Source: Halogeometricum sp. S3BR5-2 (GTDB lineage: Archaea > Halobacteriota > Halobacteria > Halobacteriales > Haloferacaceae). Taken from it: DNA of 64,000 bases. Each line of letters begins with the position of its first letter. The first letter of the stretch is position 1. The notes under the pieces are model-generated. The model was given only the letters and a program-made list of their open reading frames with translations. It was not told the DNA's origin and did not search any database. Where the stretch lies: the NCBI RefSeq assembly GCF_031624635.1, contig NZ_JAMQOQ010000001.1:744001-808000 (forward strand), read 5' to 3'. The position numbers and the translations under genes are program-made. Shown here piece after piece: positions 4,263-58,910 of the stretch.

Positions 4263-4265
4263 CGG

Positions 4266-9999: not shown

Positions 10000-10062
10000 T
10001 TTGATTGGGTGCAGAGAATGGGTCGGAGGGTTCTCCGTAGCACACACTACGCGCGCGTTGGG

Positions 10063-10070
10063 CATATATC
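10063..10070 (-). promoter_or_regulatory. TATA box of tfb
   Basis: CATATATC (GATATATG on the minus strand) lies about 65 bases before the tfb ATG. Transcription from it would give a leader of roughly 40 bases, unusual in a mainly leaderless genome. Confidence 0.45.
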
Positions 10071-10180
10071 TGATGGCTAGCGGACGACGAAATCGGCTCG
10101 CGGGGTCGCCGCGGCGGCGTCTCGGGCGTCTCGGCGCCGACACCGAAACCCTTACTCTTGGCCCCCGGTTCGTGACGAAC

Positions 10181-10459: not shown

Positions 10460-11752
10460 ATGGGGGCGAACATCTTCATCACCGAGGAGACGGTCGACGG
10501 CGCCGACGACGGCCCCCTCGCGGGGACCACCGTCGCCGTCAAGGACAACCTCAGCACCGAGGGCGTCCGCACGACGTGCGGGTCCGCGATGCTCGAAGAC
10601 TACGTCCCGCCGTACGACGCCACCGTCGTCGAACGCCTGAAGGACGCCGGCGCGACCATCGTCGGCAAGACCAACATGGACGAGTTCGGGATGGGCGGCA
10701 CCACCGAGACGTCGGCGTTCGGTCCGACCGAGAACCCCGTCGACGCGGAACGCGTCCCCGGCGGGTCGTCGGGCGGGTCGGCCGCCGCCGTCGCCGCCGG
10801 CGAGGCGGACGTCGCCCTCGGCACCGACACCGGCGGGTCGGTTCGCAACCCGGCCGCCTTCTGCGGCGTCGTCGGCATCAAGCCCACCTACGGGCTGGTC
10901 TCGCGCTACGGCCTCGTCGCCTACGCGAACTCCCTCGAACAGGTCGGTCCCATCGGGTCGACCGTTGAGGACGCCGCCGCCCTGTTGGACGTGATTTCGG
11001 GCGCCGACGAACGCGACGCGACGACGCGGTTCGACGAGTCGATGGGTACCCACCCGGCCGCCGACTCGGAGTACGCCGCCGCCGCGGACGGCGACGTGGA
11101 GGGCCTCACCGTCGGCGTCGTCGCGGACCTCCTCGACGGCGCGGACGACCGCGTCGTGGAGACCTTCGAACAGTCCGTCTCGGACCTCGAATCGCGGGGC
11201 GCCGAGGTGGTCGAAGTGAGCCTCGAATCGGTCGAACACGCCGTGCAGGCGTACTACGTCATCGCCATGTCGGAGGCCTCCTCCAACCTCGCGCGCTACG
11301 ACGGCGTGCGCTACGGTCTCTCGACGGGCAAGGACGGCAACTGGAACGAGACGTACGCCGAGACGCGCGAGGAGGGTCTGGGGGAGGAGGTCAAGCGGCG
11401 CATCCTCCTCGGCACGTATGCCCTCTCGGCCGGCTACCACGACAAGTACTACAAGAAGGCTCAGGACGCCCGCGCGTGGATCAAACAGGACTTCGACGCG
11501 GCGTTCGAGGAGGCGGACGTCCTCGCCACGCCGACGATGCCCGTCCTCCCGCCGAAACTCGGCGAGAGCCTCTCGGACCCCCTCCAACTCTACTTGATGG
11601 ACGCCAACACCGTCCCGGTGAACCTCGCGAACCTGCCGGCGATTTCGGTGCCGGCGGGCGAGGCGGACGGCCTCCCTGTCGGACTCCAACTCATCGGCCC
11701 GAAGTTCGGCGAGGAGACGATGATTCGGGCGGCCTCCGCGGTGGAGAACTGA
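10460..11752 (+). CDS. gatA: Glutamyl-tRNA(Gln) amidotransferase subunit A
   Basis: The 430-residue amidase subunit that releases ammonia from glutamine or asparagine for transamidation. The Lys-cisSer-Ser triad is visible: Lys in TTVAVKDN near residue 30, Ser in VPGGSSGGSAAAVA near 100-112, and the nucleophile Ser in GTDTGGSVRNPA near 120-132. It is shorter than bacterial GatA (about 480) mainly at the start, where the protein opens directly with an acidic MGANIFITEETVDGAD. It starts directly after the gatC stop. Confidence 0.96.
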   Translation: MGANIFITEETVDGADDGPLAGTTVAVKDNLSTEGVRTTCGSAMLEDYVPPYDATVVERLKDAGATIVGKTNMDEFGMGGTTETSAFGPTENPVDAERVPGGSSGGSAAAVAAGEADVALGTDTGGSVRNPAAFCGVVGIKPTYGLVSRYGLVAYANSLEQVGPIGSTVEDAAALLDVISGADERDATTRFDESMGTHPAADSEYAAAADGDVEGLTVGVVADLLDGADDRVVETFEQSVSDLESRGAEVVEVSLESVEHAVQAYYVIAMSEASSNLARYDGVRYGLSTGKDGNWNETYAETREEGLGEEVKRRILLGTYALSAGYHDKYYKKAQDARAWIKQDFDAAFEEADVLATPTMPVLPPKLGESLSDPLQLYLMDANTVPVNLANLPAISVPAGEADGLPVGLQLIGPKFGEETMIRAASAVEN

Positions 11753-11778
11753 GTTCCGCGAGTCTCTCCTTAGTCGGC

Positions 11779-11793
11779 GGACGCTTCGCGTCC
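11779..11793. terminator. Stem-loop after gatA
   Basis: GGACGC-TTC-GCGTCC forms a perfect six-base stem 27 bases after the gatA stop. A second tight dyad (TCGCT-C-AGCGA) follows shortly after. There is no long T-tract directly behind, so a termination role is only possible. Confidence 0.3.
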
Positions 11794-11921
11794 ACCGAAC
11801 TTCGCTTCGCTCAGCGAGACGGGTTTTGTGAGTGCGAGGAAGTCGGGAACTGAGCGGCCGCCGAGGCCGCACCGACGGCTCACGAACGGGCGACCGAAAG
11901 AATCGAATCGCGAATCGGACG

Positions 11922-12053
11922 TTACTTGTTGGTCAGCGCCCGCAGCGCCACGCCCGCGAGGATGGTCACGACGCCGATGATGGTGGCGATGGGCGGGATG
12001 GGGATGAACAGGAATACGACACCGACGAGTATCACGATGGTCGAGAGCTTCAT
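11922..12053 (-). CDS. Small two-helix membrane protein
   Basis: A 43-residue hydrophobic protein. It starts MKLSTIVILVGVVFLFIPIPP, followed by a second helix ATIIGVVTILAGVALRAL and a short basic end LTNK. The hairpin layout with a Pro-rich turn is typical of tiny haloarchaeal membrane proteins of unknown role. The ATG at 12053 is preferred to an in-frame start 26 codons upstream because the hydrophobic helix begins there. Confidence 0.6.
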   Translation of the reverse strand: MKLSTIVILVGVVFLFIPIPPIATIIGVVTILAGVALRALTNK

Positions 12054-12306
12054 GTCCCGTTCGACGCACATCAGAGTGAAAAGCGTGGTTGCCACACGTC
12101 CCGCTCCGAGACTGTATCCGAATCGGACCATTCAGGGTCGGCTCTGCGCTCGGGGCCGGTGCGTGGTTCGTCGGCACGCCCGAGTGGCCGGGCGCGGGCG
12201 CGCTCCTCGGCCCCGCCGCGCCCGGTCGTCTGCGGGTTCGCCCCTCGAACGGACGTGTCACCTCGGCCCCGAAAAACTGTTTACGGCGACACCGAGACCC
12301 GCCCGT

Positions 12307-12597
12307 ATGGACGATTCCTTCGCCGAGACGGTCCCCAGGTGGGCGCTGCGCTTCGCGGCCGGGAGCGCGGCGCTCGCGGTGCTCTCCTTCCTCTTCGGGG
12401 GGCCCGGAACGGAACTGCTGACCGGCGCGCTCGTCGCGGCGTTCCTCGCCGTCTCCGGCTACATCCTCTATCGGTCGAGACGCGAGGAGGGGCCGCCCGG
12501 AGGCGGAGGCGGAAGCGGGGGACAGGAACCGACGCGCCGGTCGGAGACGACGGCCGAGACGGGCACGAACGGGTACGGTGGCGACGGCGACCTGTAA
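12307..12597 (+). CDS. Small membrane protein of unknown function
   Basis: A 96-residue protein with two predicted helices (about residues 12-30 and 36-57), a basic YRSRREEG stop-transfer and a disordered Gly/Thr/Glu-rich tail. No family is recognised. The 250-base gap before it shows no other gene. The ATG at 12307 opens the acidic frame; upstream in-frame sequence is not protein-like. It is convergent with trkH, 36 bases from its stop. Confidence 0.6.
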   Translation: MDDSFAETVPRWALRFAAGSAALAVLSFLFGGPGTELLTGALVAAFLAVSGYILYRSRREEGPPGGGGGSGGQEPTRRSETTAETGTNGYGGDGDL

Positions 12598-12633
12598 CGC
12601 GCGCTCCCCCTTCTCGCCTCCCCGCCGGACGCG

Positions 12634-14238
12634 TCACCGACGCCAGTACTCCGGCGTCAGGAGCACGAGCACGGGGAGAATCTCCAGCCGTCCGATCCAC
12701 ATCAGCGCGACCATGAACAGCTTCGCCGCGTTCGAGAAGCCGAGGTAGCTTCCCATCGGGCCGGCGACTCCGAACCCCGGACCGACGTTGCCGAGCGTGG
12801 ATGCCGCCGCCGCCATCGTCTCCAAGAGCGTGAGCGTCTGGCCGTGACGCACGCCGTCGAGGAACAGGAGGCCCGTGGCGACGAAGAAGATGACCAAGTA
12901 GAGGAGCGTGAACGCGTAGATGCCGCGGATGGCGCGTTCGTCGAGGGCGCGACCCGCCAGCCGAACGGGGCGGACCGCCTCGGGGTGGGCCGTTGTGTAC
13001 AGTTCCCGACGGACGGACTTGACGATGACGTACCAGCGGACGACCTTCACCGAACCGCCGGTCGACCCGGCGGAGCCGCCGATGAACATCGCGAACAGGA
13101 GCACGTACTTCGCCGGGGTGCTCCACGCGTTGAAGTCGATGCTGGCGTACCCCGTCGTCGTCACGATGGCGACGACTTGGAACGCCGCGTGGCGGAGCGT
13201 GGGCTCGACCTGTCCGACGATTATCCCGCTGACCTCGCCGAGGTAGGCCGCGTCGAACGTTCCGTCGGCCGGCGCCGAGGCGGTGAAGCCCGCGCCGGTG
13301 AACAGGAGCACCGAGAGCAGCGCGGTCAGCGCCGCCATCACGCCGACGTAGGAGCGGAACTCCGTGTCCTCGAAGACGTGCCGGGGGTCGCCCGTCAGCG
13401 CGTGCCAGAACAGCGCGAAGTTGACGCCGGCGGCGACCATGAACGGGATGATGATCCACTGCGCCGCCGCGGAGAGCGCCTCGATGCTGCGCGCCTCCGG
13501 GGAGAACCCGCCAGTCGGCATCGTCGTCAGCGCGTGCGCGACGGCGTTGTAGAGGGTCAGGTTCGGGTCGATTCCGAGTAGGAAGAGACCGTACAGCAGC
13601 GCCGCTTCGAGGACGGTGAAGCCGATGTACGCGCCCCAGAGCGCGCGCGCCGTCTCGGCGATGCGGGGGGTGAGCTTCTCGATGCCGGGGCCGGGCGCCT
13701 CGGCGTCCATCAACTGCGCGCCGCCGACGGAGAGTTCCGGCAGGATGGCGACGGCGAGGACGACGATGCCCATCCCGCCGAGCCACTGGGTCAACTGCCG
13801 CCACATCATGATGCCGCGGGTGTGGGCGTCGAACGATATCTCCCCGAGCACCGTCGCGCCCGTCGTCGTGAACCCGCTCATGCTCTCGAAGAGGGCGTTG
13901 GCCGGGTTGCCGAGCGTCGAGGCGGGGCGGACCGGGGCGACGGCCGGCGGGATGCCGTGCGCCTCGATGAGGTACGGGACGGCGCCGACGACGGCGACGG
14001 AGAGCCACGTCAGCCCGACCATGAGAAAGCCCTCGCGGGCGCGGATGTCCGGGTCGGGGTCCAGTCGCTCCAGTCCCGCCCCGAGGACGACGGTCAGGGG
14101 AATCGTGACCGCGAACGGGACCACCGTCTCGCCGTAGTACAGCGCCACGAGGAGCGGAAAGCAGAGCGGGACCGCGAGGTACTTGAGGATGCTCCCGACG
14201 AGACTGAGGCTGGCCCGGTAGTCGACGCGTAGCTTCAT
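12634..14238 (-). CDS. trkH: Trk potassium uptake channel subunit TrkH
   Basis: A 534-residue K+ translocating membrane subunit of the SKT family. The four selectivity-filter segments are visible: SMSGFTTTGATV near residue 119, TTMPTGGFSPEA near 245, VAIVTTTGYASIDF near 355 and AASTLGNVGPGFG near 482. It needs the cytosolic RCK protein TrkA, which is encoded 88 bases upstream on the same strand, so the order is trkA-trkH in one transcriptional direction. Potassium uptake is central to the salt-in strategy of haloarchaea. The C-terminal GRLEILPVLVLLTPEYWR is the standard end of TrkH. Confidence 0.95.
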   Translation of the reverse strand: MKLRVDYRASLSLVGSILKYLAVPLCFPLLVALYYGETVVPFAVTIPLTVVLGAGLERLDPDPDIRAREGFLMVGLTWLSVAVVGAVPYLIEAHGIPPAVAPVRPASTLGNPANALFESMSGFTTTGATVLGEISFDAHTRGIMMWRQLTQWLGGMGIVVLAVAILPELSVGGAQLMDAEAPGPGIEKLTPRIAETARALWGAYIGFTVLEAALLYGLFLLGIDPNLTLYNAVAHALTTMPTGGFSPEARSIEALSAAAQWIIIPFMVAAGVNFALFWHALTGDPRHVFEDTEFRSYVGVMAALTALLSVLLFTGAGFTASAPADGTFDAAYLGEVSGIIVGQVEPTLRHAAFQVVAIVTTTGYASIDFNAWSTPAKYVLLFAMFIGGSAGSTGGSVKVVRWYVIVKSVRRELYTTAHPEAVRPVRLAGRALDERAIRGIYAFTLLYLVIFFVATGLLFLDGVRHGQTLTLLETMAAAASTLGNVGPGFGVAGPMGSYLGFSNAAKLFMVALMWIGRLEILPVLVLLTPEYWRR

Positions 14239-14326
14239 CGGCGAACCGTCTCGACTCTCTCGGGCCGGCGTGTATTAGTTTGCGATACCGTCCGCGGGTT
14301 CGTCGTCGGGGCGAACGGTGGACGGC

Positions 14327-15664
14327 TCACAGTTCGGGAGTCACCTCGCTGACGACGGCGGCGTCGACGAACAGGACGACGTGGTCGCCCGCCTCGACGA
14401 CGGTGTCCCCGCGCGGCGTGATGAACTCCCGGTCGCGCGTGATGGCGCCGACGACGACGCCCTCGGGGAGTTGTTGGATGGATTCGCGTATCTCGCGGCC
14501 GGCGAGGACGCTCGCGTCGTCGACCTCGATTTCGAGCACCTCGGCCTTGTCCGACTCGATGAGCGCGACGTTCTCCGCGCCGCCCTCGCGGGTGAACCGC
14601 GTTATCTCCTCGGCGACCACCTCGCGCGGGTTCACCCCCACGTCGACGCCGACGGCCTCGAACAGGTCGACGTACTCCGTCGTGTCGATGACCGCGACGG
14701 TGCGCTCGACGCCGATGCGGGCGGCCAGAAGCGAGACGAGGAGGTTCTTCTCGTCGGACTCCAGGGCGGCGACGACGAGGTCGGCGTCGCCGACGTGCTC
14801 GCGTTCGAGGAACTCCGTGTCGGTCGCGTCCGATTCCATGACGACGGTGTCCGGCAGTTTCTCGGCCAGATTCCGCGCCCGTTCGGGGTCGCGTTCGATG
14901 AGGCGCGGGCGGAAGCCGCGCTCTTCGAGCAGTCGGGCGACGTGGAATCCGATCTCCGACCCGCCGACGACGACCACCTCCTCGGCGGTTCCCGGCGACT
15001 CGTCGGGGGCGACCGTCCGCGCGAACTCCTGGACGCTCTTGGGCGTGCCGATGACGACGACGCGGTCGTTGGGTTGGATGACCGTCTCCCCGCGCGGTAT
15101 CTCGACGGTGCCGTTGCGCAGGATGGCGGCGAACGTCAGCGCCTCGAAGCGGTCGGCCTCGCGGATGGTGACGTTCGAGACGGGGCTGTTCTCGGCCACC
15201 TCGAACTCCGCCATCTGCACCCGCCCGCCGGCGAAGGGGTCGACGTCGCGCGCCGCCGGCAGGCCGATGATGCGCACGATGGACTCGGCGGCCAGCAGGT
15301 TCGTACACACCATGAAGTCGATGCCGAACGCCTTCTTCGAGCGCTGCCACGTCCGCAGGTACTCGGTGTTCTTCACGCGGGCGATAGTGAACGCGTCGCT
15401 GATGGCCTTCACCGTCGAGCAGACGACGATGTTCGTCTCGTCGTCGTCCGTCGAGGCGATGACCATCCCGGCGTCGTCGACGCCCGCCTCTTCGAGCGTC
15501 GAGACGGCCGTGCCGTCGCCGGCGATGGCCAACACGTCGTGCGAGTAGTTCATGTCCTCGACGCGTTCGGCGTCCGAGTCGATGACGACGACCTCGTGCA
15601 CGTCGGCGAGGTCGGCCGCGATGCTCGACCCGACCTGTCCGGCACCGACGATAACTACGCGCAT
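14327..15664 (-). CDS. trkA: Trk potassium uptake protein TrkA (double RCK)
   Basis: A 445-residue peripheral gating subunit with two TrkA-N/TrkA-C pairs. The first nucleotide site is MRVVIVGAGQVGSSIA (residues 1-16). The second is VVVVGGSEIGFHVARLLEERG, around residues 227-247; its GGSEIG loop keeps the glycine pattern. Each TrkA-N is followed by a TrkA-C ligand domain. It binds NAD(H) or ATP/ADP and gates TrkH, whose gene follows. Confidence 0.95.
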   Translation of the reverse strand: MRVVIVGAGQVGSSIAADLADVHEVVVIDSDAERVEDMNYSHDVLAIAGDGTAVSTLEEAGVDDAGMVIASTDDDETNIVVCSTVKAISDAFTIARVKNTEYLRTWQRSKKAFGIDFMVCTNLLAAESIVRIIGLPAARDVDPFAGGRVQMAEFEVAENSPVSNVTIREADRFEALTFAAILRNGTVEIPRGETVIQPNDRVVVIGTPKSVQEFARTVAPDESPGTAEEVVVVGGSEIGFHVARLLEERGFRPRLIERDPERARNLAEKLPDTVVMESDATDTEFLEREHVGDADLVVAALESDEKNLLVSLLAARIGVERTVAVIDTTEYVDLFEAVGVDVGVNPREVVAEEITRFTREGGAENVALIESDKAEVLEIEVDDASVLAGREIRESIQQLPEGVVVGAITRDREFITPRGDTVVEAGDHVVLFVDAAVVSEVTPEL

Positions 15665-30566: not shown

Positions 30567-30988
30567 ACTACCTCACCCACGGCGTCGGACAGCGTCGTCG
30601 TCACGCAGAACGACTCGTGTCCCGCGTCCGTGAAGAGCGAGCGCCGCTCGGGGTCGTGCACGAACACGATGACCCGCGGCCCGTCGAACCGGGCCCGGAC
30701 GAGTTGTGCGATGAGCAGGTTCCGGCGGTCCGACCGCGTCGCGACGATGACCGTCGAGTCGCTCGTCACTCCGGACTCCGAGAGGACGTCGACAGCCGTC
30801 GGGTCTCCGGTCACGCCGGGGACGTCCTGAGACTCGTAGGACTCGTCGATGACGGCGACTCGGTGGCCGCGGTCCCGCAACCGCTCGGCGATGGCGGTGC
30901 CGACGTGGGCGCCGCCGAGAACGTAGTGTGTGGGCTGTGCGGTCTCTTCCGCGCCGTTGGACGGCTGGGTGGTGTCTGATCTGGTCAT
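30563..30988 (-). CDS. Stand-alone TrkA-N (RCK) nucleotide-binding protein
   Basis: A 141-residue protein made of one RCK_N domain with no TrkA-C. After a polar 20-residue leader it has YVLGGAHVGTAIAERLRDRGHRVAVIDE at about 22-49, a Rossmann motif in which the first Gly pair is GGAHVG. The natural partner is the APC permease encoded next, to which it is coupled by a four-base overlap. It could gate that transporter by NAD(H) or nucleotide binding. Confidence 0.85.
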   Translation of the reverse strand: MTRSDTTQPSNGAEETAQPTHYVLGGAHVGTAIAERLRDRGHRVAVIDESYESQDVPGVTGDPTAVDVLSESGVTSDSTVIVATRSDRRNLLIAQLVRARFDGPRVIVFVHDPERRSLFTDAGHESFCVTTTLSDAVGEVV

Positions 30989-31064
30989 GAGGATCGGTTG
31001 TGCGTTCGTCGGAGCAATCTCGTTCGTCCATCGTCGACGGAGAGCAATAAATTAGCGGGTTATT

Positions 31065-31076
31065 TTGACGAGTCAA
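31065..31076. promoter_or_regulatory. Palindrome TTGAC-GA-GTCAA in the permease/Lrp divergent promoter
   Basis: A perfect 12-base palindrome between the divergent genes, about 80 bases before the trkA-N-like ATG and 118 before the lrp ATG. Lrp/AsnC proteins bind such dyads and often control their neighbour. Two direct GTCATAA copies follow at 31087-31093 and 31106-31112. Confidence 0.4.
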
Positions 31077-31157
31077 CGATTAGTATGTCATAAATATCGG
31101 GACCCGTCATAATACGCCGGGAGAACGCTCGCGTTTCGCGGGCGGCCGACGGAACAA

Positions 31158-31166
31158 GATTATACC
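31158..31166 (+). promoter_or_regulatory. TATA box of lrp-like gene
   Basis: GATTATACC is centred about 32 bases before the ATG at 31194, consistent with a very short or absent leader. Confidence 0.55.
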
Positions 31167-31193
31167 GTTCGAGCGCGCGAACATCCATCATCG

Positions 31194-31697
31194 ATGAAAG
31201 ACGGCGAACTGGACTCCGTCGACCGGCACATCTTGTACTACCTCCAACAGGACGCGAGGGCGACGTCGTCCACGGATATCGCGGAGAAACTCGGCCTGTC
31301 GTCGAGCACCGTCCGAACGCGGCTCAACAAACTGGAGGACAGCGGAATCATCCGCGGCTATCACGTCGACATCGACTACGACCTCGCCGGCTACCCGCTG
31401 TACACCAAAATCATCTGCACGGCGCCGGTTCCTGACCGGGACGCACTCGCGAACAGGGCGAGGGACATCCGCGGCGTGACGGCCGTCCGCGAAATCATGA
31501 CCGGGGAACGCAACGTCTACGTGAACGCCATCGGACGGAACCACGACGACCTCAACCGCATCAGTAAGGAACTGGACTCGATGGGGCTCAAAATCGCCGA
31601 CGAACAGCTGATCCGCGACGAGTTTATCTGTCCCTATCAGGGGTTCTTGGACGAGGACGAGGAGGCGGGGCTGTCCGGTGCGGACGGCGACGCCTAA
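31194..31697 (+). CDS. Lrp/AsnC-family transcriptional regulator
   Basis: A 167-residue DNA-binding protein. The N-terminal HTH is at about residues 8-50 (LDSVDRHILYYLQQDARATSS, then SSSTVRTRLNKLEDSGIIRGY). The C-terminal ligand/oligomerisation domain covers about 60-145. It is divergent from the TrkA-N/permease operon and is likely to regulate it, and perhaps itself, through the palindrome in the shared promoter. Effector is unknown; amino acids are common for the family. Confidence 0.9.
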   Translation: MKDGELDSVDRHILYYLQQDARATSSTDIAEKLGLSSSTVRTRLNKLEDSGIIRGYHVDIDYDLAGYPLYTKIICTAPVPDRDALANRARDIRGVTAVREIMTGERNVYVNAIGRNHDDLNRISKELDSMGLKIADEQLIRDEFICPYQGFLDEDEEAGLSGADGDA

Positions 31698-31798
31698 CTC
31701 GGGCAACTGTGCCGAAACCGACCGTCGTCACGTCCGACGGCGTCGAACCGACGTTACGCTCGGGAGCTGTTTCCCTCACAGATGTAATTCTCACAAAG

Positions 31799-31809
31799 AT
31801 TTATATTCG
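31799..31809 (+). promoter_or_regulatory. TATA box of leader-ORF operon
   Basis: ATTTATATTCG lies with its centre about 27 bases upstream of the ATG at 31831, so transcription should start at or within a few bases of that ATG. Confidence 0.6.
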
Positions 31810-31830
31810 AGGGAGAGTATCTAGAAATAC

Positions 31831-31899
31831 ATGAATGTTCCAGGCGTGGACTCGGGGGATGGGAGACTCCCGCGTCGGAACGGAGGAGAAGCGGTATGA
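31831..31899 (+). CDS. 22-codon leader ORF coupled to the next gene
   Basis: A short reading frame starts with ATG (MNVPGVDSGDGRLPRR...) exactly where a leaderless transcript would begin after the TATA box at 31799. It ends with TGA that overlaps the next ATG in ATGA (31896-31899). A strong Shine-Dalgarno sequence GGAGGAG (31882-31888) is embedded in its last codons, seven bases before that ATG. This fits a leader peptide that governs translation of the following gene. Translation has not been shown, and its codons are less GC-rich at third positions than the neighbours. It is not similar to a known attenuator peptide. Confidence 0.55.
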   Translation: MNVPGVDSGDGRLPRRNGGEAV

Positions 31900-32315
31900 T
31901 ACACAACCCAGCTCAGATGAAGAGTGCGAACTGGCCGGGTCCGAACCGCGACGTGGCGATGGGGACGCTGCGTGAGGCGGCCGACGAACCGCTGGACCTC
32001 GTCGCCGTCTACGGCGCGACGTCGTTCGACCTGTTCCACGTGAGCGACGCGCTCTCGGAGTCGTGTAACGACCGCGCGTCGCTCGTCGAGATCATCACCG
32101 AGTTGGCCGAGGAGATGCGCGAGGAGTTCGTCCGCCACGGACTGTTCTCGGGCCTGCGTCCGACGCAGAAACGCGTCGAGTACAAGTCGAGCATGCTCAA
32201 CGGCCGGAAACTGCTACAGGTGTACTGCGGCGGTCGCGGGATGGTTCTTCTCGTTCATCCCGACCAACGGGAGGAGCCGTTGGTCCGCGCCGCGATGGAA
32301 CTGCTCGGCGTCTGA
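31896..32315 (+). CDS. Haloarchaeal protein of unknown function, leader-coupled
   Basis: A 139-residue soluble protein, apparently alpha/beta. It starts MIHNPAQMKSANWPGPN. A helix-rich middle (LVEIITELAEEMREEFVRHGLFSGLRP) precedes RVEYKSSMLNGRKLLQVYCGGRGMVLLVHP, a two-strand end that resembles a small regulator or sensor fold. I do not recognise the family with certainty. A real Shine-Dalgarno site precedes the ATG, which is rare in this genome and supports translation from a transcript that already carries the 22-codon leader. Confidence 0.75.
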   Translation: MIHNPAQMKSANWPGPNRDVAMGTLREAADEPLDLVAVYGATSFDLFHVSDALSESCNDRASLVEIITELAEEMREEFVRHGLFSGLRPTQKRVEYKSSMLNGRKLLQVYCGGRGMVLLVHPDQREEPLVRAAMELLGV

Positions 32316-32381
32316 ACGACCGCGGGAGGCGGTGGCACGACCCGTGCGGACGGCCCGTACGCGGGGGGACGAACCGCCAGC

Positions 32382-32389
32382 TTTTATTT
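32382..32389 (+). promoter_or_regulatory. TATA box of hpt
   Basis: TTTTATTT is centred about 25 bases before the hpt ATG at 32411, giving a leaderless transcript. Confidence 0.55.
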
Positions 32390-32410
32390 CCGAACCGATG
32401 AACCGGCGAC

Positions 32411-32977
32411 ATGGACCAGTTGCGGCGGTCGCTCCTCGAAGCGCCGATAATCGAGAAAGGGGACTACGAGTACTTCGTCCACCCCATCAGCGACGGGGTG
32501 CCGATGCTCGAACCCGGCCTCCTCCGCGAGATAGTCATCCGGATCATCCGGAAGGCCGACCTCGAAGACGTCGACAAGATAGTGACGCCGGCGGCGATGG
32601 GCATCCACATCTCGACCGCCGTCTCGCTGATGACCGACATCCCCCTCGTCGTCATCCGCAAGCGCCAGTACGGCCTCGACGGCGAGGTATCTCTGAGCCA
32701 GCAGACGGGGTACTCGGAGAACGACATGTACATCAACGACGTGTCGGCGGGCGACCGCGTCCTCGTTCTCGACGACGTGCTCTCGACGGGCGGAACGATG
32801 TGCGCCGTGCTCGACGCCCTGAAGTCGACGGGCGCGGACGTCGTCGACACCGTCGCCGTCATCAAGAAGGCCGGCCCGAACGAACTCGACGACACCGACC
32901 ACCACGTCAAGACGCTCATCAACGTCACCGTCGAGGACGGCGAAGTGGTCATCGTCGACGAGGACGGCGACGACTGA
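32411..32977 (+). CDS. hpt: Hypoxanthine/guanine phosphoribosyltransferase (archaeal HPRT family)
   Basis: A 188-residue purine-salvage enzyme that makes IMP or GMP from hypoxanthine or guanine and PRPP. The PRPP-binding motif [13 protein letters not shown] spans residues 117-129, and [19 protein letters not shown] at 83-101 is typical of the archaeal Hpt group. The acidic C-terminus ends EDGDD. A close relative, adenine phosphoribosyltransferase, is the main alternative. It has its own promoter. Confidence 0.9.
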
Positions 32978-33165
32978 CCGTCGGAGTCGGCGCTCCCGTT
33001 CCGGTACGACGGTCGTGAATGTTAGATAGTTACATACTCGGGTTCCTGAACCTCTTCTTCACACACTCGATCCGAATATTATCGACCGGACGTTCGACAA
33101 CTCCCGGAATCGCCGAACGAGTTTCCACCGTATCGCTCCGGAAGAGTGATAACGCGCTGTCCATT

Positions 33166-33184
33166 CCGTCACACTGTGTCACGG
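33166..33184. promoter_or_regulatory. Dyad abutting the ABC-transporter operon start
   Basis: CCGTcACACtGTGTcACGG is symmetric at all positions except three central or paired ones (16 of 19). It ends directly before the ATG at 33185. It could be an operator blocking initiation or an RNA hairpin. Which of the two start codons is used decides the reading. Confidence 0.4.
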
Positions 33185-35083
33185 ATGTACGACCGACGCG
33201 GCGACGACGAGCGAAGGGGGATGAACCGTCGGGCCTGGCTCAAAGCGCTGGGCGTGGCGGGCGTGACCGGACTCGCCGGCTGTAGCGGCGACGACGGGAA
33301 CGCGAGCACGGGGACCGAGTCTGCGACCGCGACCGACGGCTCCGAACTGGGGACGTCGGAGGGGACGAGCACCGGGATGGACGAACTCCCGGAAGTCAGC
33401 GGCACGTATCGGACGGACATCTCGGGGTCGCTGGCGACGCTGAACCCGCTCTACAACAACGAGCAGGGCGCGGCGGACGTCATGTCCTACGCGCTCGATT
33501 TGGGTTACGGTTTCCGCCCCGGCACGGAGTACTTTCCCCAACTGTACGACCTGACCACAGACGGCGGCGACGTGTGGGTCGCCAGCCTCCGCGAGGGACT
33601 GCAGTTCGGCGGCGACTACGGCGAGGTGACCGCCGAGGACTTCGTCTATCAGATAACCGAACTCCACCAGAGCGACTGGGCCGCGACGGCGGACGCCCCC
33701 TCGTGGCCGAGCGAACTGAACGTCGAGCGGACGGGCACCTACGAGTTCCAGATCGAACTGCCGAACCCGAACCCGCTGTACCCCGAGACGTACGACCCGC
33801 TGCTCTACCCGATTCCCAAGGCCCTCCTCGAACCGTTCGTCGGCGAACAGGACGCCCAAGGACTGGAGAACAACGCGGAACTCACCGAACTCCAGTTCGT
33901 GGAGGGGGGGAACCTCGGCGCGTACTCGCTGGAGTCGTGGAACCGGTCGAGCAACATCACGTTCACCCGAAACGAGAACTACTACCTCAGGGAGGCCGAG
34001 GACGTGCCGGACCGCTTCGGCAACGCGCCCTACTTCGAGGAACTCGAAGTGCAGGTTACCCAGGAGCAGGCGGCCCGTCTGGGTGCGCTGGAAGCGGGAC
34101 AGACCGACAGCGTCGCGGTGCCGCCGAACCGGGTCACCGAGTTCGACGGGATGGACGGCGTCGACGTCTATCAGATCCCGCAACCGTTCAACGAAGTCTG
34201 CGTCTACAACATGCGCGACAACGGCTGGACCGCGGGTCCCGGCAACCTCTTTCAGAAGAAGAAGTTCCGACAGGGACTCGGCTGTGCGGTCAACAAGCAG
34301 GCGCTCGTTCAGGGCGTGTTCCGCGACTACGCGCAGGTGCAGTACACCTGGCAGCCCCAGTGGTCGCAGTGGTACCCCGACGAGAGCGAAATCATGCAGT
34401 TCGGCACCGGGGACCTGTACGGCCCGGAGGCGACGCGGAGCCGGATTCGAGAGGCCATCTCCGACACCGACTACAGCTACGGTAACGACGGGCAACTGCT
34501 CACCCCGAGCGGCGACCAGGTCGAACTGAGCCTCTACCACAGCGCCGGGCAGAACACCGAGCGCAACATGGCCCAGTACATCGCACAGGAGTTCGGCGAC
34601 AACGCCGGGATTCAGGTGAACGTGCAGGCCATCGACGGCACGCAGTTCACCAACAACTACTGGCAGCAGCAGGTGCCCGACGACCCGAGCCAGTACGAGT
34701 GGTCCAACGGGCCGTACAACGCCGGCCCCCGCGAAGTGACGAGCGCGAACCCGTGGGACATGAGCGTCGTGTTCGGCCTCAACACCTACCCGCTGAACCC
34801 GACGACGGCGAGCGTGTTCTTCTCGCGTGACTCCTCGTACAATCCGTACGGCTACTACCCCTCTTGGGACGCCGAGGAACTGTTCCAGCGGGCGAACAGC
34901 GCGGCCAGCGAGGAGGAACTCCAGCCCATCTTCACGGAGATATTCAAGAACGTCGCCGAGGACCAGCCGATGGGAATGCTCGCGTTCCCCGCCGACACCG
35001 TCGGCTACTCCGCCGGCATCGTCGGCCCCGCGGAGAACTTCTTCAGCGGCTGGAACTTCCCGACGTGGTACCGCAACGAGTGA
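33185..35083 (+). CDS. Peptide/nickel-type ABC transporter substrate-binding lipoprotein (Tat-exported)
   Basis: A 632-residue extracytoplasmic solute receptor of the SBP_bac_5 (DppA/OppA) family. The signal has the twin-arginine motif NRRAWLKALG and the lipobox LAGC (Cys follows Gly), so it is exported folded by Tat and lipid-anchored. Thr/Ser/Glu-rich linker residues 50-75 precede the receptor. The receptor includes LKDSDWA-like helices, YDPLLYPIPKALLEPF, and NPW/DPYGYYPSWD, typical of peptide-binding SBPs. An alternative start at 33221 (MNRRAW) would remove 12 residues and put the arginines at the very N-terminus. It heads the five-gene operon to 39914. Confidence 0.88.
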   Translation: MYDRRGDDERRGMNRRAWLKALGVAGVTGLAGCSGDDGNASTGTESATATDGSELGTSEGTSTGMDELPEVSGTYRTDISGSLATLNPLYNNEQGAADVMSYALDLGYGFRPGTEYFPQLYDLTTDGGDVWVASLREGLQFGGDYGEVTAEDFVYQITELHQSDWAATADAPSWPSELNVERTGTYEFQIELPNPNPLYPETYDPLLYPIPKALLEPFVGEQDAQGLENNAELTELQFVEGGNLGAYSLESWNRSSNITFTRNENYYLREAEDVPDRFGNAPYFEELEVQVTQEQAARLGALEAGQTDSVAVPPNRVTEFDGMDGVDVYQIPQPFNEVCVYNMRDNGWTAGPGNLFQKKKFRQGLGCAVNKQALVQGVFRDYAQVQYTWQPQWSQWYPDESEIMQFGTGDLYGPEATRSRIREAISDTDYSYGNDGQLLTPSGDQVELSLYHSAGQNTERNMAQYIAQEFGDNAGIQVNVQAIDGTQFTNNYWQQQVPDDPSQYEWSNGPYNAGPREVTSANPWDMSVVFGLNTYPLNPTTASVFFSRDSSYNPYGYYPSWDAEELFQRANSAASEEELQPIFTEIFKNVAEDQPMGMLAFPADTVGYSAGIVGPAENFFSGWNFPTWYRNE

Positions 35084-35151
35084 CTTCGCTCCGCGCTCGG
35101 TAGACGCATCGCAGACGACCGCCCTTTCGGACAACTTACAGAGACAACAAC

Positions 35152-36126
35152 ATGGGACTCGGATGGTACATCGCTCGTCGGGTCGCGTGGTCGTTCGTCG
35201 TCACGTTCATCATCGTCTCGGTGACGTGGGGACTGCTCACCGCCGCGCCGAACCCCGAGGTACAGCAGGCGGCCCAACAGGCCGCGCTCGCGGGCGACGA
35301 CCCCGCAGAGGCACAGGACAGGGTACGACAACTCCGCGGACTGGACAGGCCGTTGCACGAACAGTACATCGGCTACATGACCAACATCTACACGCTGAAT
35401 TGGGGGTGGTCCGACTCCCGGGCGCAACCGGTGACGGAGGCGGTGACCGAGGCGCTGTACTACACCGTCCAGTACTCCGTCCCGTGGACGCTGCTCGTCG
35501 TCACGCTGGGACCGCTGGTCGGACTGTACTCCTCGGCCAACCAGTACTCCTGGAAGGACCACCTCGCGACGGGGTTCGCCTTCTTCGGCTACGCGATACC
35601 GAACTTCTTCTTCGGTATCATCCTCCTCCTCATCTTCGGGGTGGAGTTGGGCTGGATTCCCATCACGTACAACACGGACGTCCCGGTGTTCAGCGTCGAG
35701 AACGCGATTCAGCTCGCGATACCGGTGTTCGTGTTGGTGACGGGGTCCATCGGGGGCATCATGCGCGTCTCGCGCAACGAGTCCTCGGAGTTCATGAACG
35801 CCGACTTCGTGAAGACGGCGCGCGCGAAGGGCGTCTCGACGTACCGCATCTACGCGCGACACGTCCTTCGACCGACGATGGTCCCCCTCTCGACGACGAT
35901 GGTCGCGCAGTTGCTCGCGCTCTTCACGGGGTCGTCGATACTCGTGGAGGTGGTGTTTTCGATACCCGGCCTCGGTCGGTTGCTGTTCCGCGCCATCGTC
36001 GCGCAGGACACGAGCGTCGTGCTCGGCACGTCGCTGTTCTTCGTGTTCGTCGCGACCATCGGAAACCTCCTGCAGGACCTCGTGTACACCGTACTGGACC
36101 CGCGAATCAGCTTCGACGATAGATAA
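35152..36126 (+). CDS. Peptide-type ABC transporter permease (DppB-like)
   Basis: A 324-residue membrane permease with six helices. N-terminal GLGWYIARRVAWSFVVTFIIVS is standard for DppB. The EAA loop that contacts the ATPase is visible as NADFVKTARAKGVSTYRIYARHVLRP. The N-terminal extracytoplasmic loop is the usual 60 residues. Its TAA stop overlaps the next ATG (TAATG), 68 bases after the receptor gene. Confidence 0.93.
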   Translation: MGLGWYIARRVAWSFVVTFIIVSVTWGLLTAAPNPEVQQAAQQAALAGDDPAEAQDRVRQLRGLDRPLHEQYIGYMTNIYTLNWGWSDSRAQPVTEAVTEALYYTVQYSVPWTLLVVTLGPLVGLYSSANQYSWKDHLATGFAFFGYAIPNFFFGIILLLIFGVELGWIPITYNTDVPVFSVENAIQLAIPVFVLVTGSIGGIMRVSRNESSEFMNADFVKTARAKGVSTYRIYARHVLRPTMVPLSTTMVAQLLALFTGSSILVEVVFSIPGLGRLLFRAIVAQDTSVVLGTSLFFVFVATIGNLLQDLVYTVLDPRISFDDR

Positions 36127-37313
36127 TGGCCACGCAAGACTCACCGCGGTTCGACACGGTCGATTGGGACGAGATAGCGAGCGGCGGCGGCCGGGAGGTG
36201 ACGAAGAGCCTCGCCGCCCTCGGCGCGATACTCGCGGGACTCGCCGCGTTGTTCCTCTACGACCTCCTCGCCGTCCCCGACCGCACGGCGACGTTCGCCG
36301 CCGTCGGGTGGGGCTACGACGTGACGCGACTCGACTGGCTGCTCGCGCTCTCGCTGCTGTTCGTCGGGTTCTACGGCGTCCTCCCCCTGTACCGGAACAG
36401 GCGGATGACGCGCTACTACTGGGCGGAGTTCAAGAAGAACCGCCCGGCGGTCGTCAGCCTCGCCTTCCTCGCCGTCGTCTTCGTCGGCGGCATCCTCGGA
36501 CCGGTCGTCGTCAGCCCCCCCGAGTCGGAACTGCTCCGGCAGTTCCAGCCGCCCGTGTTCATGGAGATTCAGCGCAACTACGTCATCGAGTGCGTCGGCG
36601 AGGCCGCCGGCGGCGTCTGTCAGGGGACGTGGCAGCACCCGCTCGGAACCACGCCCGACGGGCGCGACATCTTCTCGATGATCGTGTACGGGATGCAGAT
36701 ATCGATGAAAGTCGGACTCATCGCGACGCTCATGGCCGTCGTCATCGGCGCGAGCGTCGGCACCGTCAGCGCGTACGCCGGCGGGATGGTCGACGAGGTG
36801 CTGATGCGCTACGTCGACATCCAGCAGTCGTTCCCGACGCTCGTGCTCTACTTGCTCATCATCTACACGTGGGACGCCGACCTGTTCACCATGGTCATCC
36901 TGTTCGGCCTGTTCTCCTGGGAGGGGACCGCCCGGTACGTGCGGAGCAACGCGCTCGCGAAGACCGAAGAGGAGTACATGAAGGCCAGTCGTCTCAGCGG
37001 CGCCGGGACGTACCACACCATCCGGCGACACCTCGTTCCGAACACCGCGAGCAGCATCATCACCGACGCGACGCTCCTGATTCCGGCGTTCCTCCTCGCC
37101 GAGGCGCAGTTGTCGTTCCTCGGACTGGGCGACACGAGCGTCGCCTCGTGGGGCCAACTCATCAGCATCGGACGGGACCACCTCTCGTACGCGCCGTGGA
37201 TCACGCTGGCGCCGGGACTGGTCCTCTTCTTGACCATCCTCGCGTTCAACTTCCTCGGCGACGCGCTGTTGGACGCGCTGAATCCCGAGGCGCGGGCGGA
37301 GGCGGAGTCGTGA
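36126..37313 (+). CDS. Peptide-type ABC transporter permease (DppC-like)
   Basis: A 395-residue second permease. The family core begins near residue 100 (WAEFKKNRPAVVSLAFLAVVF). The first 90 residues form an extra hydrophobic segment (TKSLAALGAILAGLAALFLYDLLAV and WLLALSLLFVGFYG) not found in bacterial DppC. The EAA loop is EYMKASRLSGAGTYHTIRRHLVPN. A cysteine pair lies in the periplasmic loop (IECVGEAAGGVC), which may bind the receptor or form a disulphide. It overlaps the downstream ATPase start. Confidence 0.92.
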   Translation: MATQDSPRFDTVDWDEIASGGGREVTKSLAALGAILAGLAALFLYDLLAVPDRTATFAAVGWGYDVTRLDWLLALSLLFVGFYGVLPLYRNRRMTRYYWAEFKKNRPAVVSLAFLAVVFVGGILGPVVVSPPESELLRQFQPPVFMEIQRNYVIECVGEAAGGVCQGTWQHPLGTTPDGRDIFSMIVYGMQISMKVGLIATLMAVVIGASVGTVSAYAGGMVDEVLMRYVDIQQSFPTLVLYLLIIYTWDADLFTMVILFGLFSWEGTARYVRSNALAKTEEEYMKASRLSGAGTYHTIRRHLVPNTASSIITDATLLIPAFLLAEAQLSFLGLGDTSVASWGQLISIGRDHLSYAPWITLAPGLVLFLTILAFNFLGDALLDALNPEARAEAES

Positions 37314-54703: not shown

Positions 54704-57205
54704 ATGCAGTACCACGAGGCGGTGGGCTTTCTCTTCGACCTCCGCCGGTTCCAGGTCAAACCGGGGACGGCGTCGGTTCGGGCGCTCCTCGCCGAGTTCG
54801 ACGACCCGCAGGAGGACGTGGCGTTCGTGCAGGTGGCGGGGTCGAACGGCAAGGGGAGCACGGCCCGGATGACCGAGTCGGCCCTCCGGGAGGCCGGACT
54901 GAGCGCGGGTCTCTACACGTCGCCGCACTTCGAGACGCTGCGCGAGCGAATCCAGGTCGACGGGCGGAAGATACCCGAGGCGGCGGTCTGTGAGTTCGTC
55001 GAACGCGCGAAACCGTGGCTGGTCGGACGGGCCGCCGACGGCGACCCGCTCACGTTCTTCGAGGTGATGACGGCGCTGTCGGTCTGGTACTTCGCCGAGG
55101 CCGACGTTGACGTGGCCGTCCTCGAAGTCGGCATGGGCGGGAAGATGGACGCGACGAGCGTCGTCGACCCCGTCGCCGCCGCGGTGACGAACGTCTCGCT
55201 CGAACACACGGCCGTCCTCGGCGATACGGTGGAAGCGATAGCCGAGAAGAAGGCCGCCGTCGCCCCCGCGGGCCGACCGCTCGTGACCGGCGCGACGGGC
55301 GCCGCGCTCTCGACTATCCGCGAACGGGTCGGGAACGTCGTCACCGTCGGCGCGGAGGGGACGAGAGAGTCCTCCGGGGCCGACGCCGAGGCGCCGGACG
55401 TGACCGTGCGCTCGAAGGGACGCGTGAACCACCAGGAGTCCGCCGTCAGCGTCGCCGGCGGCGACTGGCGCGTCGAGGGACGGGTCCCGCTGCTCGGCGC
55501 CTATCAGGCGGAGAACGCCGGCATCGCCTGCGTGCTCGCTCGACAGGTGGCCGACGAACTCGGCGTCGGAGCCGAACTCGACGCCGGGACGCTCGAACGC
55601 GGCCTGCGGACCGCCCACTGGCCCGGTCGCTTCGAGGTGATGGAGACCGACCCCTACGTCGTCCTCGACGGCGCGCACAACCCCGGCGCCTGCGAGTCCC
55701 TCGCCACCGTCTTCGACGACTTCGACGCCGAAGACCTGCACCTCGTCTTCGGCGCGATGCACGACAAGGACCACCGCGAGATGGTCGAGGCCCTTCCCGA
55801 CCCGGACTCCGTCGTCACCTGCCGGCCGAACAACCCCCGCTCGGAGGACCCCGAGGTGCTCGCCCGCGTGTTCGAGGACGCCGGCGTCGGGGAGGTGACC
55901 GTCGGGAACGACGTGGCCTCGGCGCTCGCGTCGGCCCGCGAACGCGCCGACGAGGGCGACTGCGTGCTCGCCCTCGGGTCGCTCTTCCTCGTCGCGGAGG
56001 CGCGCGCGACGTGGACGCGCGTCGTGACGCCGGTGGACGTCCGCGACCGCTCGGACGCCGACCGGGTGCTCGAACGCGCGCACGTCGAACGCGCGGAGGC
56101 CGCCGCGGCGGGCGAGGACGTCGTCCACCGCACCGTCACGCTCCCCCTCCAGCGCCGGCAGGCGCGCACCGCGGAGATGGCGATGCTGGAGGCCGGCGGC
56201 GACTGCGCCGTCTCGGCGGACGCCGGCGACGGCGAACTCGCTCGGGCGGTGTTGTCGGGAACGCGCTCGGAGTTCGAGGGGCTGACCGAGCGACTCGCCG
56301 ACGCGCCGTACGGGTTGCCCGACGTCGCCGCGGACGTACGGGCGCGGGTCGGCCTCGACGCCGAAGAGGGAGGCAGCGCGACCGACTCGGAGTACCCGTG
56401 GAACGACGGCACGGCGGTGATGGGCATCCTGAACGTCACGCCGGACAGTTTCCACGACGGCGGCGAGTTCTACGACACGACCGCCGCCCTCGAACGCGCC
56501 GAGGCGATGGTGGAAGCGGGAGCGGATATCATCGACATCGGCGGGGAATCCACCCGACCCGGCGCGGAGGAGGTGCCCGTCGACGAGGAGATTCGCCGCA
56601 TCGTCCCCGTCATCGAAGCCTTGGCCGACGTGGACGCGCTTCTCTCCGTGGACACCAGGAAGGCGACCGTCGGCGAGGCGGCCCTCGACGCGGGCGCCGA
56701 CATCCTCAACGACGTGACCGGTCTCGAAGACCCGGAGATGCGCTTTCTCGCCGCCGAACGCGACGTGCCGGTCATCGTGATGCACAGCATCGACGCGCCC
56801 GTCGTGCCCGGCAAAGACGTCGACTACGACGACGTGGTCGACGACGTCATCGACGAACTCGGAGAGCGCATCCTCCTCGCGGAGAAGGCGGGCGTCCCGC
56901 GCGAGAACGTCATCGTCGACCCCGGCATCGGCTTCGGCAAGTCGAAGGCGGAGAACTTCAAGATACTCGACAGATTAGGGGAGTTCGACGCCCTCGGCTG
57001 TCCGCTGCTGTTCGGCCACTCGCACAAGTCGATGTTCGAACTCGTGGGAGCGGACGCGGGCGACAACCCCGTCGCCACCGCCGCGGCGTCGGCCCTCGCG
57101 GCGGACCGCGGCGCCGACATCGTCCGCGTCCACGACGTCCCCGAGAACGTCACCGCCGTGAACGTGGCGCTGGCGACGCGGGACTCCGGACAGTTCGAGG
57201 AGTAG
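54704..57205 (+). CDS. folCP: FolC-FolP fusion: folylpolyglutamate/dihydrofolate synthase and dihydropteroate synthase
   Basis: An 833-residue fusion. Residues 1 to about 430 are FolC (Mur ligase fold), with the P-loop AGSNGKGS at 45-52, EVGMGGKMDAT near 144, and VLDGAHNPGACESL. Residues from about 573 are dihydropteroate synthase, MGILNVTPDSFHDGG, GGESTRPGAEEV, SVDTRKATV, LNDVTG, GFGKSKAEN and GHSHKSMF. About 130 residues in between form a separate charged region (residues 440-565). The same fusion is known in Haloferax volcanii as a folate synthase. It makes dihydropteroate and adds glutamate. Its spare spacer includes HRTVTLPLQRRQARTA. Confidence 0.95.
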   Translation: MQYHEAVGFLFDLRRFQVKPGTASVRALLAEFDDPQEDVAFVQVAGSNGKGSTARMTESALREAGLSAGLYTSPHFETLRERIQVDGRKIPEAAVCEFVERAKPWLVGRAADGDPLTFFEVMTALSVWYFAEADVDVAVLEVGMGGKMDATSVVDPVAAAVTNVSLEHTAVLGDTVEAIAEKKAAVAPAGRPLVTGATGAALSTIRERVGNVVTVGAEGTRESSGADAEAPDVTVRSKGRVNHQESAVSVAGGDWRVEGRVPLLGAYQAENAGIACVLARQVADELGVGAELDAGTLERGLRTAHWPGRFEVMETDPYVVLDGAHNPGACESLATVFDDFDAEDLHLVFGAMHDKDHREMVEALPDPDSVVTCRPNNPRSEDPEVLARVFEDAGVGEVTVGNDVASALASARERADEGDCVLALGSLFLVAEARATWTRVVTPVDVRDRSDADRVLERAHVERAEAAAAGEDVVHRTVTLPLQRRQARTAEMAMLEAGGDCAVSADAGDGELARAVLSGTRSEFEGLTERLADAPYGLPDVAADVRARVGLDAEEGGSATDSEYPWNDGTAVMGILNVTPDSFHDGGEFYDTTAALERAEAMVEAGADIIDIGGESTRPGAEEVPVDEEIRRIVPVIEALADVDALLSVDTRKATVGEAALDAGADILNDVTGLEDPEMRFLAAERDVPVIVMHSIDAPVVPGKDVDYDDVVDDVIDELGERILLAEKAGVPRENVIVDPGIGFGKSKAENFKILDRLGEFDALGCPLLFGHSHKSMFELVGADAGDNPVATAAASALAADRGADIVRVHDVPENVTAVNVALATRDSGQFEE

Positions 57206-57256
57206 TCCTACGACTTTCATAGGATTTAATTCAATCCCCAATCAGTCTGAATTCAC

Positions 57257-58081
57257 TCACGGCAAATCCAAATGTTTGTGTCTTTGTTCAATAGACTCTC
57301 CCTGGTTAGTAAGCTCATTCAGCTCGGTCTGAAACCTATTTCTAATCTCAGTACTTAGCCAATCTAATAATTCCACGAGTAGCTCATGGTAATTTGCACA
57401 GCTATCGGAGATACTCATGTCACTCCTCTGGATGTTGTAGAGATAGTATTGAGACGGACTATCCCACCAATTCTGATTCTCTGGTTGTAACCTATCGCGT
57501 TTTATTATAACGTCTTTTTCTGGAGTATCTTCTGGGTGTAATTGGAATGTGTGTTTTGAACGGGGAGGAAGATAAGCCTCGTGTAAATAAATATCTCGTA
57601 AGTTGTTGAAGAATGATCTATAGTAGTGAAGTTCTAGATTTTCCTCTTTTGCCTCAAAGTCACTGATTATCCCACTACCAGATTCTAATTTCTCAAGTTG
57701 GCATAGTAGTGGCTCTTGATTCCTCATATTCATATTACCACCAACAAGATGTTCGGAAAGCGCTTTTGTTACAGCTACAAAATTAATCAGATATCTGACA
57801 ACGTCCCACGCTAAACGCTTAGACTGATCACTAGTAATTGATTCGTTGCTATTTTTGAAATCACTAAGTGCCTCTTCTAGGTCTTCGTAATTGGCCGTAA
57901 CCATGTACCGAAGCTTATCTAAATCACCAATAATTCTATCAACCTCCCATCCATCGGTATCTTTTAACTCTGAAATCTGCTCGATGAGAGAGTCAATATC
58001 CTCATCACTGGCATTGTTCTGCGGGTGATTTTTGGCTCTTTCAAGGTCGTCGATGTAGGGTATATTCGGAACCTTGCCCAT
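57257..58081 (-). CDS. Unknown AT-rich gene, possible HEPN-like protein
   Basis: A 274-residue, mainly helical protein from a block of DNA clearly richer in A+T than everything around it, with codons such as TTT, ATT and AAT that the neighbours avoid. I recognise no family with certainty. A long helix at about 92-112 (WDVVRYLINFVAVTKALSEHL) precedes NNLRDIYLHEAYLPPR, where Arg162 and His167 make an R-x4-H pattern (R-D-x3-H), the catalytic pattern of HEPN ribonucleases. Trp205 and Trp206 and Asp/Glu-rich turns follow. No partner toxin-antitoxin gene is adjacent. Recent transfer is likely. Confidence 0.8.
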   Translation of the reverse strand: MGKVPNIPYIDDLERAKNHPQNNASDEDIDSLIEQISELKDTDGWEVDRIIGDLDKLRYMVTANYEDLEEALSDFKNSNESITSDQSKRLAWDVVRYLINFVAVTKALSEHLVGGNMNMRNQEPLLCQLEKLESGSGIISDFEAKEENLELHYYRSFFNNLRDIYLHEAYLPPRSKHTFQLHPEDTPEKDVIIKRDRLQPENQNWWDSPSQYYLYNIQRSDMSISDSCANYHELLVELLDWLSTEIRNRFQTELNELTNQGESIEQRHKHLDLP

Positions 58082-58163
58082 ACAGTGCCTTTTCGCAAAA
58101 CTACTTCAGATTGCATGCAAGGCCGCCGAACCGTTTTCTCGCCGCCGCCCCTAGACGAGTCCC

Positions 58164-58910
58164 GTGTGCACTCTGACCATCGCGTGGCAGGCGTTCGACG
58201 CGGCGCCCGTCGTCGTCGCCGCCAACCGCGACGAGGCGCTGGACCGACCCTCGACGCCGCCGGGCGTCGTCGACGGCGACCCGGCGTTCGTCGCCCCCGG
58301 AGATAGCGAGGCGGGCGGGACGTGGGTCGGCTACAACGACCGCGGCGTCTTCGTCGGAATCACCAACCGGTGGGTCGACGTCGCGGGCGGCGGCGAGCGC
58401 TCTCGCGGTCAGTTGGTCGTCGACGCCCTCCGCGCCGAGAGCGCAGCGGCCGCCCGCGAGACGGTCGAATCCGCCGTCGAGGCGGACGTCTACGACGGCT
58501 TCAACCTCGTCGTCGCCGACGCCGCCGACGCGTTCGTCTTCGAGTGGGACGGGTCGCTCCGGACGACGCGACTCGACCCGGGCGTCCACGTCGTCGTCAA
58601 CGTCGGCTACGACGGCGACTTCTTCGAACCCGCGGCGCGACCCGAAGCGGGGCGGAAGCAGGCCGACAACGCTCGGCGCGTGCGCGAGGCGTTGCTTCCG
58701 AAGGCGGAGTCCCCCGAGGCGTGGCGCGACCGGGCGGCGTCGGTGCTCGGCGACCACGAGTACGGCGTCTGCGTCCACGACCCGGAGGGCCGCTACGGCA
58801 CTCGCTCGTCGTCGCTCATCACGCTGTGGGCCGACGGCGGCGCCGACTACGACTTCGCCCCCGGGCCGCCCTGCGAGACGCCCTACGAGCGGGTCGAAAG
58901 TCAGGTTTAA
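58164..58910 (+). CDS. NRDE-family protein (TANGO2-like)
   Basis: A 248-residue protein that begins MCTLTIAW, with Cys2 exposed as in NRDE/TANGO2 proteins, and contains the name-giving AANRDEALDRP at about residue 18-28. PGDSEAGGTWVGYNDRGVFVGITNRW, and RSRGQLVVDALR follow. The function in archaea is not settled; an Ntn-hydrolase-like fold is suspected. The start is GTG at 58164. Confidence 0.87.
   Translation: MCTLTIAWQAFDAAPVVVAANRDEALDRPSTPPGVVDGDPAFVAPGDSEAGGTWVGYNDRGVFVGITNRWVDVAGGGERSRGQLVVDALRAESAAAARETVESAVEADVYDGFNLVVADAADAFVFEWDGSLRTTRLDPGVHVVVNVGYDGDFFEPAARPEAGRKQADNARRVREALLPKAESPEAWRDRAASVLGDHEYGVCVHDPEGRYGTRSSSLITLWADGGADYDFAPGPPCETPYERVESQV

Follow-up and report, generated by a model that had tools for sequence, protein, structure and literature searches.

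The 64-kb stretch of DNA analysed here (the window), from Halogeometricum sp. S3BR5-2, holds a single AT-rich gene whose only neighbours are two housekeeping genes, folCP and an NRDE-type gene (Table 1). The first-pass annotation, made from the letters of the window, regarded this gene as stand-alone cargo coding for a HEPN-like protein. Its open reading frame was confirmed at 57257-58081 between the two flanking genes and is intact; the product is termed P0001. The GC content of the gene is 0.399 (39.9%) vs 0.68 for the whole window, in which 825-bp windows have a standard deviation of 0.039 and, within the first 57 kb, a minimum of 0.578. The CAI scored against the neighbouring genes is 0.134 for P0001, while the neighbours themselves reach 0.66-0.78. 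The GC values agree with the early remark that the gene is lower in GC than its surroundings. Elsewhere in the window, the region 30800-37000 has a moderately lower GC (0.61-0.66) than the remainder. A segment elsewhere in the same genome (G000:C4:381045-381798) shares 70% identity with the folP part of folCP and is a possible paralogue.

Table 1. Features of the inserted segment and its flanks, in window positions
Feature	Position	Strand	Basis
folCP, flanking gene outside the insert	54704..57205	+	ORF; 81-82% match in congeners
Inserted segment, ~0.9 kb, edges approximate	57206..58123	.	missing at the same place in relatives; GC 0.400
P0001 gene, 274-aa HEPN-like protein	57257..58081	-	ORF call, translation, family homology
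Rx4H motif R162-D-I-Y-L-H167, predicted active site	57581..57598	-	family conservation; aligned with HepT RNxxxH
Helix-2 motif [ED]xxRxxxN, residues 93-100 (D93..R96...N100)	57782..57805	-	family conservation; helix 2 in family model
N64, conserved Asn of helix 1	57890..57892	-	N in 23/27
NRDE-type gene, flanking, outside the insert	58164..58910	+	ORF; 84-85% match in congeners

In two genomes of the same genus (G002 and G003), the matches to the flanks (81-85%) end near 57208 and restart near 58124 with a short spacer between them, and the same joined folCP-NRDE empty site with a short spacer was found in three further genomes of the same taxonomic family (G306, G011 and G031), which provides the empty-site check that had been proposed for the locus. 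The P0001 protein was found in none of the four congeners searched. Since the flanks are joined by a short spacer in congeners and the protein is missing from all four, the segment is a clean ~0.9-kb insertion carrying one gene, and the empty sites bear out its description as single-gene cargo. Composition and rarity favour gain in this genome rather than loss in the relatives. A tRNA search of the window returned none and neither direct nor inverted terminal repeats of the insert were convincing, as had been stated for tRNA and flanking direct repeats; integration at a tRNA or through repeats was rejected on these grounds. No second ORF of at least 60 aa lies wholly inside the insert and an Rfam scan gave no match above threshold, the sub-threshold matches being miRNA models that were taken as chance.

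Searches with P0001 alone, and with its profiles, against Pfam, NCBIfam, PADLOC and PDB sequences produced no match above noise, and genome contigs, viral contigs, phage and plasmid records yielded no usable or near relative. When 391 genomes of its class were searched in six frames, with a check by phmmer, distant, nearly full-length relatives emerged, the best being L002 (E 4.6e-8) and L003 (E 8.1e-7). Six other matches of this search (L005, L007, L008, L010, L011 and L013) were set aside as a different, mutually similar protein family, and five (L009, L012, L014, L017 and L018) as unrelated or coiled-coil matches. A six-row profile (A1) matched 37 of the 391 class genomes at E <=0.01, some through fragments, and a 23-row profile (A2) extended the family to other classes of the phylum (L096, L098 and L100). 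tblastn with these three led to plasmid proteins of the Actinomycetota Miltoncostaea, Micromonospora and Rhodococcus, all annotated as hypothetical. The family, represented by a 27-member alignment (A6), has a patchy distribution over haloarchaea, further classes of their phylum and plasmids of Actinomycetota; many relatives are chromosomal, and its members share 12-21% identity with P0001.

A Pfam scan of 23 members gave no match to Abi-type HEPN families or to any Pfam HEPN family; in PADLOC, P0001 is unmatched and its relatives show weak scattered matches, for example NsnC at E 0.0025. The family is new, lacking a model in Pfam and NCBIfam and a confident one in PADLOC, although the kind of enzyme it appears to represent is a known one, found here as solo inserts. 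In the tree of the 27 members, whose branches are long, P0001 clusters with L002, L004 and L016 (support 100/96), all from taxonomic families different from its own, and this grouping is consistent with transfer. Some family members (L116, L117 and L119, matches near 4000-4660) are interrupted by a frameshift or stop codon, which may point to gene decay in part of the hosts.

HEPN domains are defined by an Rx4-6H motif in which the Arg is usually followed by N, D or H; an acidic residue in helix 2 is a frequent further feature (PMC3710099). The R-D-x3-H motif followed by LPPR that had been read from the translation is present as R162-D-I-Y-L-H167 followed by EAYLPPR. Across alignment A6, Arg162 is the sole invariant residue (27/27), whereas position 167 carries His in 21 of the 27 members and Lys in the remaining 6. 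The residue after Arg162, D163 in P0001, is N in 15, H in 5, T in 4, V in 2 and D in 1, so that 21/27 members have one of the polar residues N, H and D at this place. Helix 2 is conserved at [ED]93 (23/27), R96 (22/27) and N100 (23/27), its acidic residue occurring as [ED]xxR vs the Ex3[KR] typical of HEPN.

The six Lys167 members (L006, L057, L058, L060, L061 and L107) all have a His99, immediately ahead of the conserved Asn of helix 2, and no member among the 27 lacks both His99 and His167, an association that is not significant (Fisher p 0.14). His99 is a possible alternative catalytic His in these six, judging from the alignment, and an alternative catalytic His has been proposed for AbiV (PMC3710099). 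The Lys substitution also bears on a different account of the family, namely that a HEPN fold without nuclease activity serves in RNA or nucleotide binding or in regulation, with Arg162 and the helix-2 residues binding a ligand and position 167 being merely basic or polar. An invariant Arg beside a Lys in 6/27 would suit such a function, and HEPN domains with an incomplete motif are known (PMC3710099). This account is nevertheless unlikely, as the full Rx4H is present in P0001 and 20 of the other 26 members, 21/27 have N, H or D next to the Arg, and the six exceptions have His99 as a possible alternative of the kind proposed for AbiV. RNase activity of P0001 is rather probable, although the Lys in six relatives may mean that catalysis is not general in the family.

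A single-sequence AlphaFold model of P0001 was useless (pLDDT 38). The relative L111 of Natribaculum breve (222 aa) was modelled from a 17-row alignment with P0001 among its rows, and the pLDDT was 84.1 and the pTM 0.84. Its model comprises helices at 30-51, 71-103, 126-142 and 196-220. Helices 2 and 3 are connected by an irregular stretch that includes a short helix, and residues 149-167 form a beta-hairpin; R138, the counterpart of R162, lies near the end of helix 3 and H143, the counterpart of H167, directly after that helix. The HEPN domain is described as a four-helix up-down arrangement in which an insert separates helix 2 from helix 3 and the motif stands at the end of the latter (PMC3710099), and the model agrees with this in helix order and motif position, in a member separated from P0001 by a long branch. 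The Foldseek comparison proposed earlier was favourable in rank and short of significance in score: against the PDB, the top match of the L111 model is the HEPN toxin 7ae6_A with E 0.46 and probability 0.60. HEPN-toxin chains make up 9 of the 50 listed matches, from two proteins (7ae6, 7ae8 and 7ae2; 7bxo) and none significant. Because the PDB holds only ~40 HepT-type chains identified by sequence, such a share is unlikely to arise by chance, although chains of one protein are not independent. Foldseek of the family model against viral models gave no match. A HEPN-type fold is quite likely.

The family was further compared by hhalign with an alignment of ten HepT-like proteins from haloarchaea that a PF01934 search had identified. 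Profile A2 scored 28.8 (E 0.0011, probability 20%) and A6 scored 26.1 (E 0.0033, probability 9.7%), both below the usual confidence cut-off. Helix 2 was aligned, and the LRxxxxH of the family fell in register on the catalytic RNxxxH of HepT. Controls with reversed alignments gave E 0.15-0.45, shuffling the columns of the HepT alignment 60 times gave a top score of 17.1, and HepT vs DUF4145, two accepted HEPN families, scored 20.8 as a yardstick. The subset profiles A1, A3 and A4 were weak against HepT, and therefore the signal depends on family breadth. DUF4145 (PF13643), itself an accepted HEPN family (PMC3710099), was considered as the nearest HEPN relative and rejected, since it differs from the new family in showing no profile similarity to it.

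P0001 is probably a member of the HEPN superfamily, because the motif and its polar follower are present and no tested defining feature failed. The HEPN-like assignment made at the outset gains from the Arg in 27/27 and the His in 21/27, from the helix order of the family model and from the HepT profile with its catalytic residues in register. A chance R-x4-H in an ORFan or decaying gene unrelated to HEPN had to be weighed as well, as P0001 alone matches no library family and a single sequence with an Rx4H proves little. Against this stand an Arg162 that is the only invariant residue across 27 members at 12-21% identity to P0001, a motif at the HEPN active-site place in the family model, a HepT similarity above all controls and an intact frame. 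Such a chance origin is very improbable, and the conservation seen across the family largely refutes it.

HepT (PF01934), of the HEPN/MNT modules, resembles the new family in its R-[polar]-x3-H in register at the end of helix 3 and in the aligned helix 2, and the best PDB fold matches of the family model are HEPN toxins, though not at significance. The two differ in size (~235-275 aa vs ~140 for HepT), in the beta-hairpin that follows the motif of the new family and in its lack of an MNT partner gene. PF01934 is absent from the Pfam matches of P0001 and its relatives up to E 1, no MNT antitoxin gene (PF01909) adjoins P0001 next to folCP or NRDE, and the sequence H167-E168-A169 lacks the modifiable Tyr of the RX4HXY motif of HepT/MntA. 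A HepT/MntA identity was rejected for these three reasons.

P0001 might still be the RNase toxin of a toxin-antitoxin pair, held in check by a small RNA, a very short peptide or the product of a gene at another place in the genome. An antitoxin partner is common among HEPN toxins (PMC7641770), and a PF01934 search showed other HepT-like genes in the same genome. Such a pairing appears rather improbable in view of the folCP and NRDE neighbours, an insert without a second ORF of at least 60 aa wholly inside it or an Rfam match above threshold, and the missing RX4HXY Tyr (H167-E-A); moreover, transfer of a single gene would lose an unlinked antitoxin.

Csx1 carries a beta-hairpin directly after its HEPN motif (PMC3710099), a trait also found in the L111 model. 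In contrast to Csx1/Csm6, the family has no Rossmann/CARF Pfam match, the 222-aa model leaves no room for such a domain and P0001 has no CRISPR context; a Csx1/Csm6 identity was rejected for want of a Rossmann/CARF domain. AbiD/AbiF, AbiJ, AbiU2 and AbiV are similar in their HEPN motif, in having no obligatory antitoxin and in their accessory or defence context (PMC3710099), whereas 0/23 members of the new family match their Pfam families.

Some relatives stand in comparable company. L003 has an Mrr-type restriction endonuclease on one side and a 1668-aa protein that weakly matches a Sacsin domain on the other (L082:5934-7403 and 9784-14787 alongside), possibly a defence island. The Rhodococcus relative is near an AbiEi/AbiEii pair, the Halomicrobium relative near a cytosine (DNA) methyltransferase, and the Micromonospora and Halorubrum relatives near integrases, while other relatives have neither defence nor integrase neighbours. 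The defence or accessory context of some relatives is suggestive only. Regarding viruses, phrog_12680, a phage family of unknown function, matches six members (best E 3.9e-5; L098 and L003 at ~4e-5) and is collinear with P0001 (40-258 on 11-219 of 247, E 0.033); it is otherwise very divergent, its match to P0001 being weak and those to L098 and L003 better. A direct search of IMG/VR and phage records, including tblastn, gave no close relative.

The phage match raises the alternative that P0001 is a virus or plasmid gene that served its mobile element, through superinfection exclusion, counter-defence or host take-over, and became stranded in the chromosome. The AT-rich composition, the weak collinear phrog_12680 match and the relatives on plasmids near integrases speak for such an origin; the direct search of IMG/VR and phage records without a match and the many chromosomal relatives speak against it, so that it seems improbable. 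It also overlaps with the antiviral reading, since phage-borne HEPN genes can be antiviral too. An antiviral or toxin-like role, as first surmised, is plausible, with only indirect backing from the accessory and defence context of relatives together with the weak link to a phage family.

The reading preferred here, that of a stand-alone HEPN-like RNase of abortive-infection type, horizontally acquired and without an adjoining antitoxin gene, has about an even chance of being right as a whole. P0001 would be a horizontally acquired solo member of an undescribed HEPN-superfamily family, with a predicted four-helix core in which Arg162, Asp163 and His167 form the active site at the end of helix 3 and the conserved polar residues of helix 2 lie nearby. 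HEPN RNases frequently serve in antiviral cell suicide, and by analogy with them it would act as a dimeric, metal-independent endoribonuclease. As no antitoxin gene adjoins it, the protein would probably remain latent until triggered by a virus or another invader, and the triggered enzyme would then cut cellular or viral RNA and cause a growth stop, i.e. abortive infection with a presumed antiviral effect. A triggered endoribonuclease acting alone has been proposed for Abi-type HEPN proteins (PMC3710099). Defence in archaea is reported to be little explored and to be enriched in candidate single-gene systems (PMC12988326); the P0001 family is a compact, testable defence candidate for which catalytic residues are predicted and the empty sites of relatives offer natural controls.

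Insertion as a solitary AT-rich gene recurs in the family. L002 (in G247) has a GC of 0.424 vs 0.641 for its flank and occupies ~1.1 kb where relatives have 113-259 bp. L057 (G200:C1:2340921-2341526) has a gene GC of 0.377 vs 0.722 for its flank and occupies ~0.93 kb, with the flanks of its site 16-130 bp apart in congeners. Among 30 members, 25 have a lower GC than the DNA on either side, with a mean difference of 9.3 points over the members (Wilcoxon p 3e-6, an optimistic value as the members are related), and no boundary sequences common to the inserts were seen by eye. A bolder generalization is conceivable and unlikely to hold in full: a solitary HEPN RNase family would insert repeatedly into intergenic sites unrelated to one another, each time as a single AT-rich gene of ~0.9-1.1 kb, without integrase, repeats or partner, and act as a one-gene, self-regulated antiviral effector across haloarchaea, other archaea and Actinomycetota plasmids. 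If true, it has to be asked how a single gene that lacks mobility functions gets into clean intergenic sites. At the L057 site, an unrelated ~3.5-kb insert is present in the congener G652 (L152) and the site is empty in the others; because G200 and G652 hold different inserts and the other congeners none, this intergenic site may be an insertion hot spot.
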